Notes under the pieces: generated by a model
The model's database searches: none
Told to the model about the DNA's origin: nothing
What the model saw: only the letters and a program-made list of their open reading frames with translations
Made by a program: the position numbers and the translations under genes
In this document: positions 4,170 through 9,919 of the stretch, piece after piece
How the letters are laid out: the number at the start of each line of letters is the position of its first letter
How positions within the stretch are numbered: the first letter of the stretch is position 1
DNA from: an uncultured Hyphomicrobiales bacterium
GTDB lineage: Bacteria > Pseudomonadota > Alphaproteobacteria > Rhizobiales > Beijerinckiaceae
Reading direction: 5' to 3'
NCBI GenBank assembly: GCA_903861645.1
Contig: CAIOVE010000020.1
Span: forward strand, 1-64,000
DNA length: 64,000 nucleotides

Positions 4170-5132
4170 ATGAAATTTCCAGGCTTGGGCGCCGCGATCA
4201 TGGGCGCCTTCATCGCGGGATCGTCCGCCACGGCCCAGACCTGGCCAACGCAGTCCATCAAAATGATCGTTCCAATCGCGCCGGGGTCGGTGACCGATGT
4301 CGCGAGTCGATTTCTCGCGCAGGAATTGCAGGCGCGCCTTGGCCAACCGGTGGTCGTGGTCAACCGGCCCGGCGGCAACATGGTGATTGGCGCGCAGGAA
4401 TGCGCGAGAGCCGAACCCGATGGCTACACGATCTGCGTTCTGGGCGCGGACGCGTTCTCCTACAATCCCTTTCTTCTCGATCAACTGCCTTACGATCCCG
4501 ACAAGGATTTCCGACCAATCACGAACATGTACTTCGTGAAGGAAGTTGTGCTCGCCAGCGAGAACACGCCCGCGAAAACAATGGATGAGATGAAGGCCTT
4601 GGCGAAAGCGCGGCCTGGCAAGCTGAATTTCGGAACCCTCGGCGGCGGATCGACCGTGGACATTTTCCGCAAATGGCTGTCCGACGAATGGAAGACCGAA
4701 TTCGCCGCCGTGCCCTACAAGGGCGGCAGCGAGATCGTGAACGCGGCGCTTGGCGGTCAGATCGACATCACGCGCATTGGACTTGGCAACGTCGCCGGCT
4801 TTTTCAACGATCCGCGCCTCAAGCCTCTCGCCGTGCGGAGCGAAAAGCGCCTCGCCGAGTTGCCGAATGTTCAGACAACGAACGAGGCGGGAATAGGCTC
4901 GTATCCCGGTTTGCCTTGGTGGGGGCTGGTCGCGCCGGCCAAGACGCCGGACGCCGTGATCGAGCGCGTCGGCAAGGAAGTTCGGGATATCCTGCAACAA
5001 CCGAAATCGCAGGAATTCATGAGCCGCCAGTTTCTCGAGACGGCCGTTGACACTTCCGAGGCCTTCGCGGCCTTTCTGCGCAAGGATCGCGCGGCGGCCG
5101 GATCCCTGATTTCCAAATACGGGCGGAATTGA
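4170..5132 (+). CDS. Bug/TctC-family solute-binding protein
   Basis: A periplasmic tripartite-tricarboxylate-transporter type binding protein of 320 residues. It has an N-terminal signal peptide (MKFPGLGAAIMGAFIAG... ending near SATAQ), then WPTQSIKMIVPIAPGS, RLGQPVVVVNRPGGN and the PYKGGSE motif typical of Bug proteins, which bind small carboxylates. The ATG at 4170 has GGAGG 6-8 bases upstream and gives a clean signal peptide, so it is preferred to the ATG at 4137. No TctA/TctB membrane genes are nearby, which is common for Bug orphans. It is divergent from the propeller gene. The ligand is unknown. Confidence 0.85.
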   Translation: MKFPGLGAAIMGAFIAGSSATAQTWPTQSIKMIVPIAPGSVTDVASRFLAQELQARLGQPVVVVNRPGGNMVIGAQECARAEPDGYTICVLGADAFSYNPFLLDQLPYDPDKDFRPITNMYFVKEVVLASENTPAKTMDEMKALAKARPGKLNFGTLGGGSTVDIFRKWLSDEWKTEFAAVPYKGGSEIVNAALGGQIDITRIGLGNVAGFFNDPRLKPLAVRSEKRLAELPNVQTTNEAGIGSYPGLPWWGLVAPAKTPDAVIERVGKEVRDILQQPKSQEFMSRQFLETAVDTSEAFAAFLRKDRAAAGSLISKYGRN

Positions 5133-5262
5133 ATCCGTCACGTATTCCGCTGGCTGGAAGGCGCGGGCGCTTGTTTGCCCGGCCGGTACGGTTGATCGAA
5201 TGAGATGGTCAGGCGCGACAGGGGGCTCATCTTTTTCCGCGCCGAGCCTCGCGCCGTGGCGA

Positions 5263-5718
5263 TCAAACCCGGCTATATCCGAGCGACGCGCTGCGCGATG
5301 TAAATTGCTCTTCCGTGCCGACCGTCAGGCCCGATACGTAAAGGCAAAACATTTCCATCCAGCTTCCCGCGAGAAGTCCCCAGTTTTCGAGCCCGCAGGC
5401 GACGCCACAACTTATCGCGGCGAGAATACCGCAAATATTGCCCTCCGCCCTGTCCGCGGGGTCTGCCGAGAGGCGCTCCCGGGCGTCCACCCACAACAGG
5501 AAAGGCGATAACCAGGCGACCACGGGAAGCCAGGTCGCTGGAAAATAGGCTTCGCGCAGCGCCAGATCGCCATTGTAACGAACAAACGCGAGCGCGCCGA
5601 GGGCCGCGCACGCGCGCAGGGTGACGGATACCGACTGCCCCCGGATTTTCCGATCAATCGCCGGCGTCGCGCCAAGAATTATGGCGGCGCCGATTTCAAT
5701 CAAAGTGACGGTTTCCAC
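5263..5718 (-). CDS. Small MgtC/SapB-like membrane protein
   Basis: Starting at the GTG at 5716-5718, preceded by GAGGGGA, the product has about 151 residues. Its first 40 residues (TLIEIGAAIILGATPAIDRKIRG, then SVSVTLRACAALGALAFV) follow the pattern of the MgtC/SapB membrane domain: a helix with a conserved charged IGLERE-like turn, then an RTxxLVALGA-like helix. The rest contains two or three further hydrophobic segments that I cannot match. MgtC proteins modulate membrane energetics and Mg or phosphate stress; that role is only suggested here. The longer frame to 5823 lacks a ribosome site and runs through a hairpin. Confidence 0.45.
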   Translation of the reverse strand: METVTLIEIGAAIILGATPAIDRKIRGQSVSVTLRACAALGALAFVRYNGDLALREAYFPATWLPVVAWLSPFLLWVDARERLSADPADRAEGNICGILAAISCGVACGLENWGLLAGSWMEMFCLYVSGLTVGTEEQFTSRSASLGYSRV

Positions 5719-5808
5719 GATGGTTCCCCTCGAAATGCGGGGTATTTTACGCGTATTAAAATCTAACGGTCGGTAAAATCGAGGTTGTCGCTTGGCCATA
5801 TAAAGAAC

Positions 5809-5829
5809 GCGCATTTCATTCAAATGCGC
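5809..5829. promoter_or_regulatory. Perfect inverted repeat upstream of the MgtC-like gene
   Basis: Arms GCGCATTT and AAATGCGC separated by CATTC form a perfect 8-bp inverted repeat about 90 bases upstream of the GTG start at 5718. It could be an operator or an mRNA hairpin for the minus-strand gene, or for the plus-strand GH8 gene 316 bases away. Confidence 0.4.
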
Positions 5830-6144
5830 GGCAAATGATAACTTAAATTAACTTAATTCGTGGCGTTCGTCGCGCGTGAATAATTGAAAATGCGGGAGTG
5901 ACCGCGCGCGGCGACGGGAATGGAGTTCGGCCCGAGGTCGGCGCCTAGCTTGCGTCGAAGCGTTCAGTCACCGAAATCAATCCGCCAAGCGATTGCTTGT
6001 TCAGTCGACAAATTAAATGAGTATATCGCCTTTTCATCAGGTCGAATTCGCGTTTCATTAGGATTTTAGTGTGAACGATACAATTCCTTAAATACTTCAA
6101 CACGTACCTATTGGCCTCGTCCTTCCCAGCCAGAAGCTTGTCCA
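5830..6144. other. Intergenic region upstream of the GH8 fusion gene
   Basis: About 315 bases with no gene. The DNA is AT-richer than its surroundings (for example 5835-5860 and 5999-6100), as expected for a divergent promoter region between the MgtC-like gene and the GH8 gene. I could not place a clear -35/-10 pair. Confidence 0.5.
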
Positions 6145-8229
6145 GTGATCAAAACGCTTGCCTGTATTGGAATCGTCGCCACGTTGTTGGGGCCGGTGGC
6201 CGCGCGCGCCCAGTTCGCGCCGGGTCAATTGGCGAACATGGGCGCGGCCGAACCCATCGCGGTCGGCGGCATGTTGGCGGGCGGCCCCATATGCCAGTAC
6301 CGCGACCGCTTTGTCGATCCGTCGGGACGCGTCATCGACACGGGCAATGGAGGCATCAGTCATAGCGAAGGGCAGGGCTACGGCATGTTGATCGCCGTGG
6401 CGGGAGATGATCGCGCCAGCTTCGACCGCATGTGGGCCTGGACCCGCGCCGAACTAGGTGTGCGTCGCGATCATCTGTTTGGCTGGAAATGGGATCCCTC
6501 GCGCGCCCGCGCCGTCGACGCGAATGACGCGAGCGACGGCGATTTGCTGATCGCCTGGGCGCTCGCGGAGGCCGCCAGTTACTGGAGCGATTCGAGTTAT
6601 CTGGTCAGCGCGACGAAAATCGTCGCCGACATCGAAAGCAAGCTGGTTCGGCGATACGCCAATCCGGGCGCCATTCTTCTTCCCGCCACCATGGGCTTCT
6701 CGGAAGCCGAGCGCGCGGATGGACCGGTCGTCAATCTGTCCTACTGGATATTTCCGGCGCTGGCCCGTCTGGCGCAGCTCGATGGACGCCCCGAATGGTC
6801 GGACATCACCAAGACAGGCCTGAGCCTGATCGAAACGGCGCGCTTTGGTAAGTCCAGGCTGCCCGTGGGCTGGACGTCCATCGGGAGGGAGATGCCCACG
6901 CTGGCCCGCGGCCACAAGATACGCTTCGGCTACAACGCGATCCGAATTCCGCTCTACATGTACTGGTCCGGGCTGACGTCGCAGTCATTGTTCCGTGATT
7001 TGATCGCCGCCTGGGATGGCGGGGCGGGGGGCGTTCGCGTGATCAGCGGCGAGGCCGCCGAGGTCGACGGGCCGCTCCCGGAACGCGGCTATGGCGCGAT
7101 CGCGGCCCTGGCGCGCTGCGCCGCCAACGGCCGGCCCTTCCCGCCCGAATTTTACAAGCCGACCGCCAACGAGAATTATTATCCAACCACCTTGCATATC
7201 CTGTCGATCATGGCCGCCGTCAGCCGCGGTGGTCCGTGCCTCGACGCCAGCGCGGTCAACGCATTGGTGGGACCGGGTTGGGTGGCGCGGCCGGTGGTCG
7301 CTTTCAGTTACGGCGCGCCGCCGCCTCTGTCCGCCGCGGCCGCCACGGCGCCCGGTCTGGCTCCGTATGCGCCCCCGTCTGTCGCGCGACCCGCCGGCGA
7401 ACTGCTGGATCGGATGCGGCCCAGTTCCGTCACAACTGGCTCCATGGGCGATACGATCGGCTTGGTCGCGCTGTTTGTCGTCCTGTTGAGCGGCTCGATA
7501 GGGGTCGCGGCATGGCTTGGCGACAAGGATGACACCGAGGTCGACGCCATTCCGGAGGTCGATCCGCGTCCGGTGATCGCGGCCGCCGCCACGCCGGTTG
7601 CGCTCGCCGGGCGGGTCGTCGCCGCGGCGCCCGCGTTGGCGGCGCCACTCGAAGCGATGGCGACCGTTCCCATGGCGCCCGTGACCGCCGCTCCGCTGCC
7701 GCCAGTCGCGCGCAACAGCGAACGTGTCGTGGAGGTGTTCGCTCCACCGCTTCCCTCGCGGCGGGCGGAATGGTCATTCGACGATCCGTCATTCCAGCGG
7801 AAGGTCGACGCGGCGATAGCGATCTCCAGCAGGTTTGGCCGGGCCGTGGCGCTCGCCGCGTTGCGGGTTGAGGGCTATGCGAGCGCCGAGCGCCGTTACG
7901 GCCGCCCCGACGCCGACGAAATGATCAGAATGTTCGTGGCCGACCTCAAGCCGGCGCTCGCCGTTGGCAGTTGCGTGTCGATCCAGGAGGGCGGGATCGT
8001 TTTCGTTTGTCTCGCTTTCGTTGATCGCGAAGCAAACCTTGAAAGCGCTTTCCATCCCATGCTTAACGCGGCGCTCGAACTTGTCGACGCGAACCCGGGA
8101 TACGTCGCCATAAGACCCGGCCACGCGGTCTGGCCCGTCGATGGCGATGACGCGACGCGGCTCATTAGCGTGGCCCATGAACGTTGCCAGGCAAGCGCGC
8201 CGCGCGCGGGACTTGCGATGAGCGCCTGA
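6145..8229 (+). CDS. Secreted GH8 glucanase fused through a membrane helix to a degenerate GGDEF-like domain
   Basis: 694 residues. Residues 1-22 are a signal peptide. Residues about 30-370 are a glycoside hydrolase family 8 domain (BcsZ-type endoglucanase) with the acid Glu in SEGQGYGML near residue 74 and an aspartate-rich DASDGDLLIAWAL segment near 130. A Pro/Ala-rich linker leads to a membrane helix at about 438-460, then a second linker. Residues about 545-690 look like a GGDEF-domain fold: an RFGRAVALAALRVEGY strand-helix start and a late GHAVWPVDGDDATRLISVA element. The active GGDEF loop is replaced by an SIQEGGIVFV-like segment, so cyclase activity is unlikely. Starts at GTG 6145 with a weak ribosome site. 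No bcsA/bcsB cellulose synthase genes are nearby. The substrate is probably a beta-1,4-glucan. Confidence 0.8.
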   Translation: MIKTLACIGIVATLLGPVAARAQFAPGQLANMGAAEPIAVGGMLAGGPICQYRDRFVDPSGRVIDTGNGGISHSEGQGYGMLIAVAGDDRASFDRMWAWTRAELGVRRDHLFGWKWDPSRARAVDANDASDGDLLIAWALAEAASYWSDSSYLVSATKIVADIESKLVRRYANPGAILLPATMGFSEAERADGPVVNLSYWIFPALARLAQLDGRPEWSDITKTGLSLIETARFGKSRLPVGWTSIGREMPTLARGHKIRFGYNAIRIPLYMYWSGLTSQSLFRDLIAAWDGGAGGVRVISGEAAEVDGPLPERGYGAIAALARCAANGRPFPPEFYKPTANENYYPTTLHILSIMAAVSRGGPCLDASAVNALVGPGWVARPVVAFSYGAPPPLSAAAATAPGLAPYAPPSVARPAGELLDRMRPSSVTTGSMGDTIGLVALFVVLLSGSIGVAAWLGDKDDTEVDAIPEVDPRPVIAAAATPVALAGRVVAAAPALAAPLEAMATVPMAPVTAAPLPPVARNSERVVEVFAPPLPSRRAEWSFDDPSFQRKVDAAIAISSRFGRAVALAALRVEGYASAERRYGRPDADEMIRMFVADLKPALAVGSCVSIQEGGIVFVCLAFVDREANLESAFHPMLNAALELVDANPGYVAIRPGHAVWPVDGDDATRLISVAHERCQASAPRAGLAMSA

Positions 8230-8246
8230 TCGCGGGCGCGCCCGTC

Positions 8247-9098
8247 CTAGTCGGCGGCCGCCGTCGTCGCGCCCGATTTCCACGATCGATCGGCATGGCC
8301 GCCATCGTCGCGGTCGGACACGATCCAGCGGGTGATTTCGGCCGAGGCTTTCAGCACTTCGTCCTTGAGCAACCCGTTCATGTCCTCGACCGTCACGCGC
8401 GCGTCGACGGCCGTGAGGTTGATCGCAGCGACAACCATGCCTTGCGCGTCGCGCACGGGCGCGGCGATGGCGTTGACGCCGTGCTCGAAGAAGGACTGGC
8501 TTGTCGCGTAGCCGCGCGCGCGATCGCCCACCAGCAGCGCGGCGAGCGCCGCGCGGGTGCGCGGCGTCTGCTCCGTGACTCGCGGCAGTTGCTCGTCCGG
8601 GTAAAGTTCCGCCAGTTGCGCATCGGTGAAATCGCATATGAGCATGCGGCCAAGAATGGTCGCGTGCACGGGAAAGCGCGTGCCGATATTGACGCTGCTC
8701 GCGATGGTCGTGCGCGCGGGAAAGCGCGCGACATAGACGACATCGCGTCCATCGCGCACGGCCATGTGCGAGGACAGGCCGGTGTCGTCGCGCAGTCGCT
8801 TCAGAATGGGGCGCGCGACCTCGACGAGGTCGAGGGAAGCGAGATATGCGAAGCCGCGATTAAGCACCGACGGGCCGAGGCGAAAGGCGCGCCCGCCGCT
8901 GTCGCGCACGACATAGCCGCTTGCTTCCAGCGTTTGCAGCAGGCGGAAAACCGTCGCGCGCGCGAGCGCGAGTTCCTGCGCGATTTCCGGCGGCGTCCAT
9001 GTCGGGCGATCGCGCGTGAAAAGCCCAAGCACCGCGAGGCCGTGCGCGAGCGCCGGCACGATATAGCGGGATTTGGCGTCCTGTTCCGCCATGCTCAT
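8247..9098 (-). CDS. IclR-family transcriptional regulator
   Basis: 283 residues with an N-terminal winged helix (VLGLFTRDRPTWTPPEIAQEL...ARATVFRLLQTLEASGYVVR) and a C-terminal IclR effector domain (ARTTIASSVNIGTRFPVHATILGRMLI; AAINLTAVDARVT). IclR proteins bind small organic acids and usually control neighbouring catabolic operons. The ATG at 9096-9098 overlaps the stop of the upstream hydrolase gene (ATGA), making this the last gene of a ten-gene minus-strand operon. It is the best candidate to bind the inverted repeat at 15402-15422. The effector is unknown but is probably an intermediate of the pathway encoded here. Confidence 0.9.
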   Translation of the reverse strand: MSMAEQDAKSRYIVPALAHGLAVLGLFTRDRPTWTPPEIAQELALARATVFRLLQTLEASGYVVRDSGGRAFRLGPSVLNRGFAYLASLDLVEVARPILKRLRDDTGLSSHMAVRDGRDVVYVARFPARTTIASSVNIGTRFPVHATILGRMLICDFTDAQLAELYPDEQLPRVTEQTPRTRAALAALLVGDRARGYATSQSFFEHGVNAIAAPVRDAQGMVVAAINLTAVDARVTVEDMNGLLKDEVLKASAEITRWIVSDRDDGGHADRSWKSGATTAAAD

Positions 9099-9919
9099 CG
9101 CGGCGCCTCCATGAAGTTCTGGAGCAGCGCGTTGAAGCGCCCGGGCGCCTCGACATAAAGCGCATGCCCGGCGCGCTCGATTGTTTCAATCGAGATATTC
9201 GCGCGCGCGCTGGCGGCGCGCTGGTTTGGTTCGGGCGGCGTGATGACATCGGCCGCGCCGTAAACCACTTGCGTTGGCATGGTCGCCGGCAGTCGCGCGA
9301 TATCGGCGAGCATGTCGCCGCCCGACAGCATGCGCGCGGCTTGCGCGTACCCGCGTGGATTGATGTCCGCCATGACATCGACGACGGCCCTGATGTGTTC
9401 GGGCGTGGCGTCCGGCCCGAGCAGGCGCGGCCCGCGCTTTTCAGCCATCCCGCGCGCGCCCAGCGCCTCGACGTCTCCGATCCGGCCATTGAGCAGTCGC
9501 GCGCGTTCCTCCGCGGGAAGCCGCGCGTGACCGATGGCGCAACTGGCGAGCGTCAATGTTTTGACGCGCTCGGGATATGTCGCGGCGAAGCGCGCGGCGA
9601 TCAGCGAGCCCAACGAGTGGCCGACAAGGTGGCAGGATTGCACGCCGCTGGCGTCCAGCCACGCGGCGACGGTCGCCGCGTAGGCGCCGACATCTGGCGC
9701 GTCGTCCGGAAGCGGCGTCGACTCGCCATAGCCCGGCGCGTTCCACGCCATCACGCGCCAGCGTGGCGCCAGCCCCTCGATCTGCGTGCGAAACGAACGC
9801 GCGGCGGAACCGACGCCATGCAACAGAACCACGGCGTCGCCGTCGCCGGCCTCGAGCCACGACAGATCGCCTTGCGGCAGCGCGACGGAGCGCGCCTTAA
9901 TTGAAGACGAAACCACCAT
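9095..9919 (-). CDS. Alpha/beta hydrolase
   Basis: 274 residues of the classical alpha/beta-hydrolase fold: oxyanion loop LLHGVGSA, nucleophile elbow GHSLGS (Ser), and a late IERAGHALYVEAP with the catalytic His. It resembles ring-opening (meta-cleavage product) or enol-lactone hydrolases of aromatic degradation, such as PcaD-type enzymes, though specificity cannot be read. Its start overlaps the end of the SDR gene by 23 bases and its stop overlaps the IclR start, so all three are translationally coupled. No signal peptide, so cytoplasmic. Confidence 0.85.
   Translation of the reverse strand: MVVSSSIKARSVALPQGDLSWLEAGDGDAVVLLHGVGSAARSFRTQIEGLAPRWRVMAWNAPGYGESTPLPDDAPDVGAYAATVAAWLDASGVQSCHLVGHSLGSLIAARFAATYPERVKTLTLASCAIGHARLPAEERARLLNGRIGDVEALGARGMAEKRGPRLLGPDATPEHIRAVVDVMADINPRGYAQAARMLSGGDMLADIARLPATMPTQVVYGAADVITPPEPNQRAASARANISIETIERAGHALYVEAPGRFNALLQNFMEAPR

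Follow-up and report, generated by a model that had tools for sequence, protein, structure and literature searches.

We found that one gene in the analysed DNA stretch of 64 kb, hereafter the window, joins a BcsZ-like GH8 enzyme through a membrane helix to a degenerate GGDEF domain, and that nine other genomes share this order. We give a probability of about 60% to the reading that the family consists of BcsZ paralogues which are tethered to the membrane and bear a c-di-GMP receptor, the window member being a lapsed one. The latter most likely serves at most as a glucanase, or as a glucan-binding protein, that is tethered constitutively and no longer gated by c-di-GMP at the I-site. It is regarded as lapsed because its I-site triad is lost, its C-terminal domain is relaxed and the bcs operon of its host is broken.

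The gene occupies 6145–8229 on the forward strand as a single continuous reading frame, running from GTG at 6145 to TGA at 8229 and encoding 694 residues with zero internal stops. A probable signal peptide can be read at residues 1–22 (6145–6210; MIKTLACIGIVATLLGPVAARA, then Q), where the N-terminal hydropathy peaks at 1.86. Then come, on the same strand, the GH8 domain at residues 51–366 (6295–7242), the membrane helix at 438–460 (7456–7524), an Ala/Pro-rich and poorly conserved linker at 461–544 (7525–7776) and the degenerate GGDEF domain at 545–683 (7777–8193). An earlier note on this DNA had described the order of GH8, helix and GGDEF, and Pfam, hydropathy and the homologue profile all bear it out.

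The domain architecture is thus confirmed, and its order is not a product of chance, because nine other genomes keep it. The fusion gene stands alone in the window, flanked by a TctC-type gene on one side and by a convergent gene for an IclR-type regulator on the other. A search for upstream RNA elements such as a c-di-GMP riboswitch gave nothing over threshold at 4500–9500 of the window.

In the first search, of 119 genomes of the family, most GH8 relatives were single-domain BcsZ proteins of ~370 residues and few were long. A profile of the long form was then run on 397 genomes of the family and 397 of the order, and a ten-member profile on 385 of the class. The full order occurs in ten proteins, all in three genera of one family: the window protein and G769 in genus g1, G016, G113, G514 and G529 in g17, and G089, G638, G664 and G684 in g18. 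The architecture search suggested in the note hence added nine proteins, which form one clade with the window protein.

Outside the family, no full architecture was seen in the 397 order and 385 class genomes sampled. The ~1,300 whole genomes searched are samples from larger groups, so further members may exist. Within the window genus, the long form is present in only 2 of 51 genomes, and both species keep the full-length reading frame. There were no full-length relatives on plasmids, as no plasmid record covers 80% of the query, and a scan of genome contigs yielded no more than three GH8 relatives, of which two are distant.

A GH8 tree was built from 70 sequences, the ten fusions and 60 single-domain BcsZ proteins, with the catalytic-base column excluded. 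All ten fusions fall into a single clade (UFBoot 100, SH-aLRT 97), and the BcsZ proteins that the same genomes encode in bcs operons stand outside it. In nine of the fusion genomes, a single fusion is accompanied by a single other GH8 protein, and BcsB is found in 9/10. The remaining genome, G638, has the fusion alone (L093 on contig C6), with no bcs operon and no ordinary BcsZ found in it.

The fusion loci have no conserved gene neighbour, several of the nine other loci lying on short contigs. A conserved operon partner is rejected, since synteny is only local and confined within genera. One pair of loci shares an NMT1-type transporter gene, and another pair shares a YkuD gene, as probably does G113.

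The enzyme domain is an unambiguous GH8 match (PF01270 at residues 51–276, E 3.7e-45, 154.9 bits against a cut-off of 24). Its best solved relatives are 1wzz, 6vc5, 5gy3 and 5czl, and its extent was drawn from alignments to 1wzz, 6vc5, 5czl and 3qxf. We used Glu38, Asp95 and Asp225 of AfmE1 as the GH8 reference residues (PMC5407803). The general acid E75 (6367–6369, in HSEGQGYG) equals Glu38, the −1 subsite aspartate D131 (6535–6537) equals Asp95 and Y200 is the active-site tyrosine; all three are invariant in the 72 GH8 sequences aligned.

Where GH8a enzymes have their general base, Asp225 in AfmE1, the window protein has N264 (6934–6936), both in the alignments to GH8 structures and in that of 72 sequences. 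The absence of Asp there is a matter of subfamily and not of GH8 membership. Among the fusions, the window protein and G769 have Asn and the other eight have Asp. Asn is also the majority state among the single-domain BcsZ proteins of the order, and the position has changed between Asp and Asn at least 6 times on the GH8 tree. On these two grounds, we rejected the idea that N264 shows the enzyme to be dead. Because Asn prevails in the ordinary BcsZ proteins of the order, N264 is no mark of inactivity peculiar to the window protein.

BcsZ, CelC2 and CMCax, endoglucanases from the cellulose operons of bacteria, resemble the window protein in that they are exported GH8 proteins in which the acid, the −1 subsite Asp and the Tyr are conserved. 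They differ in being single-domain, in lying in or beside bcs operons and in belonging to a separate clade. On the NCBIfam BcsZ equivalog model, the window protein scores 144.6 bits and its fusion relatives 152–169, under the cut-off of 299. By location too, the window gene falls outside BcsZ, as bcs genes occur only on other contigs of its genome.

The strongest hydrophobic segment lies at residues 438–456 with a mean Kyte–Doolittle value of 2.44. The membrane helix at 438–460 that the note had called is upheld by this peak and by the helix found at the same place in the homologues. The GH8 domain is predicted to lie outside, in the periplasm, and the GGDEF domain inside, in the cytoplasm, because a signal peptide is followed by a single helix and because of the homologues. 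The C-terminal flank of the helix is mostly richer in K/R in the homologues and, unlike in most of them, acidic in the window protein. The flank charges of the window protein itself therefore do not favour an inward C-terminus.

The C-terminal domain retains the GGDEF fold. Pfam GGDEF matches it at residues 550–683 with E 1.2e-4 and 22.3 bits, slightly below the cut-off of 23.8, while a profile made from the ten homologous C-termini matches solved GGDEF domains with E values down to 8.5e-14 (5m3c). AlphaFold on the single sequence gave a weak model (pLDDT 52), nonetheless with an order of helices and strands compatible with GGDEF. With this model, the top 16 Foldseek matches are all GGDEF domains, and PelD also turns up. 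The structural comparison thus came out GGDEF-like, as the note had expected.

The cyclase signature GG(D/E)EF is missing in 10/10 family members. The motif position in the window protein reads EGGIV (residues 615–619, 7987–8001), so the note was right that the cyclase motif is absent.

The I-site divides the family. In 8/10 members, all of g17 and g18, RxxD stands exactly five residues before the motif position, and an Arg in the following helix aligns with R390 of PleD and R402 of PelD. We take the PleD I-site to be R359, D362 and R390, and the family triad presumably aligns to PleD and PelD in this way. The triad R, D, R is invariant in all eight members of these two genera. Only 16 of the 131 columns are invariant among the eight, three of them being the I-site, with a chance probability of ~0.0015 if columns are drawn at random.

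RxxD is frequent in ordinary GGDEF domains, so the relatives may have it by ancestry and not through selection.

The three I-site positions read A, S and P in the window protein and P, D and T in the sister protein of G769. The RxxD place reads AVGS in the window protein (residues 606–609, 7960–7971), so the inhibitory-site check proposed in the note shows the site to be absent with all three triad residues replaced. Because the triad is invariant in g17 and g18 and lost or mostly lost in g1, the family receptor appears to have been lost in the window genus.

The combination of RxxD and a second Arg that marks receptors of the PelD, PssE and BcsE type is found in 8/10 members and lacking in the window protein. 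In PelD, R367A, D370A and R402A each abolish c-di-GMP binding (PMC2170427). The I-sites of PssE (PMC4125290), YdaK (PMC5422440) and BcsE likewise bind or need c-di-GMP.

The loss of the triad coincides with fast divergence. The window protein and G769 are 27% identical in the C-terminal domain and 56% in GH8, and their dN/dS is 0.69 and 0.21, respectively; these ratios are rough, with dS near saturation and the C-terminal alignment uncertain at 27% identity. The two parts differ less in rate in the other close pairs, where dN/dS is 0.18–0.42 in the C-terminal domain and 0.16–0.28 in GH8. Thus, the C-terminal domain of the window protein is under relaxed constraint. Together with the A, S, P state, this makes direct c-di-GMP control by that site unlikely.

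The fusions of g17 and g18 (L036, L037, L038 and L080–L084) also have basic C-terminal tails, e.g. RKRSRRRPARK, which neither the window protein nor G769 has.

The 64-kb window contains no bcs genes, in agreement with the note's remark that no bcs synthase genes are nearby. The window is part of contig C20, and the other GH8 and BcsB matches of the host genome are on C94 and C90. On C94, the bcs operon retains bcsZ and bcsN, along with a TPR gene at the place of bcsC. Its bcsB (L035:10128-12689, G000:C94) is truncated on the 5′ side and frameshifted near the end.

Neither profile nor protein search found bcsA in the host genome, so bcsA is either lost or in an assembly gap. This broken operon fits, without proving, a host with decayed cellulose control. 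One long reading frame on C94 resembles a BcsB–BcsZ fusion; it was rejected, as it arises from a frameshift in bcsB, whose expected C-terminal helix and stop codon can be read in the next frame.

Contig C94 ends in IS sequence (L035:12836-12976) beside the truncated bcsB. The window also starts with these 140 bp (1–140), which occur in the assembly at 28 places other than C94, in several cases at a contig end. The window also carries a gene for an IstB-type IS21 helper ATPase at 1178–1696 (Pfam E 8.5e-63).

As to the function, c-di-GMP activates cellulose synthesis by way of BcsA and its PilZ domain. A single helix would anchor each fusion protein in the membrane, with the BcsZ-like GH8 domain on the periplasmic side and the GGDEF domain, which is no cyclase, on the cytoplasmic side. 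The clade is a small orphan branch that split from the ordinary bcs-operon BcsZ and coexists with it. We propose that in a typical member c-di-GMP binds the cytoplasmic domain at its intact I-site, and that the binding dimerises the domain or recruits it to the cellulose synthase. The place or the timing of nascent cellulose trimming by the tethered glucanase would thereby be set. The computation shows the order of the domains, the clade, the residue patterns, the relaxed constraint and how the bcs operon stands in the assembly, whereas we infer the topology, the c-di-GMP binding in the relatives, the action on Bcs cellulose and the whole of the gating.

The signalling-coupled glucanase that the note envisaged accordingly survives in part. 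It fits 8 of the 9 relatives, which have the I-site triad, and fits the window protein poorly, with its A, S and P and its relaxed C-terminal domain. Several observations stand against our reading. No conserved neighbour links the fusion to cellulose, G638 carries the fusion without a bcs operon found, and the sister G769 lacks the I-site arginines yet has bcsA.

A stronger form of the proposal is that the clade provides cellulose with a second c-di-GMP input, gating a tethered periplasmic cellulase across the membrane, and that the window species is a natural loss-of-coupling variant. We consider this form less likely than not. Cellulose operons also carry a cellulase, and with a cellulase and a c-di-GMP receptor in one protein it would become possible to test directly how synthesis and trimming are coupled. 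The window genus offers a natural variant for this, in which the receptor site is gone while purifying selection still acts on the glucanase part.

Signals might instead run in the direction opposite to that of the note, from outside to inside. The GH8 domain would then bind cellulose or an oligosaccharide, and the GGDEF domain would relay the signal to a partner in the cytoplasm through contact between the proteins, with c-di-GMP playing no part. A single membrane helix does join the two halves, and degenerate GGDEF domains can work by contact, as BcsE binds BcsQ independently of c-di-GMP. Such a sensor would also account for the persistence of the window's C-terminal domain without an I-site. 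However, the relaxed constraint falls in exactly those members that lack the I-site, and no partner gene is conserved nearby, so we consider this reading improbable.

It is also improbable that the window gene is simply decaying toward a pseudogene without present function. The relaxed C-terminal domain, the lost I-site and the broken bcs operon in the same genome would all suit decay, as would the rarity of the long form in the genus. Yet the frame of 694 codons is intact, the GH8 part is under clear purifying selection at its dN/dS of 0.21, E75, D131 and Y200 are in place, and GC3 stays at ~0.74–0.83 throughout the gene. We therefore prefer the tethered paralogue with a receptor that has lapsed in the window member.

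No paper on GH8 joined to GGDEF was found in the library searched, except for a study on GH126. The note knew of no described protein of this order. Among the papers searched this stands for GH8 itself and fails for a close parallel, since a GH126 domain followed by a C-terminal degenerate GGDEF (SAERF) is described in the 637-residue QHK13041.1 of Bacillus velezensis (PMC7479077).

This nearest described protein also has an (alpha/alpha)6-type hydrolase at the N-terminus, a degenerate GGDEF at the C-terminus and a similar length, and GH126 is related to clan GH-M. It differs in being GH126 and not GH8, in coming from a Firmicute, in being reported as a single sequence and in having a putative function; the likeness is drawn by description.

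Elsewhere the parts occur apart. In Listeria, parts of these two kinds are found as separate proteins, PssZ and PssE (PMC7479077, PMC4125290), and the yda operon of B. subtilis has the degenerate-GGDEF I-site receptor YdaK (PMC5422440). Both are exopolysaccharide systems with such a receptor, as in the family, and that of Listeria also has a GH8/GH126-type hydrolase of exopolysaccharide. PssE and YdaK are separate proteins that retain RxxD, whereas the window protein is a fusion without it. PelD and BcsE share the degenerate GGDEF domain and use it in exopolysaccharide synthesis, their I-site serving as a c-di-GMP receptor. They have no hydrolase and an intact I-site, the opposite of the window protein on both counts.

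A glycosyltransferase gene also lies next to a gene for a BcsB-like protein in the host genome (G000:C90, 58127-61843), and the pair resembles an NfrB-type synthase controlled by c-di-GMP. In the counterpart L105 (G769:C61), the glycosyltransferase carries an MshEN domain. Both g1 fusion genomes have matches to this system.
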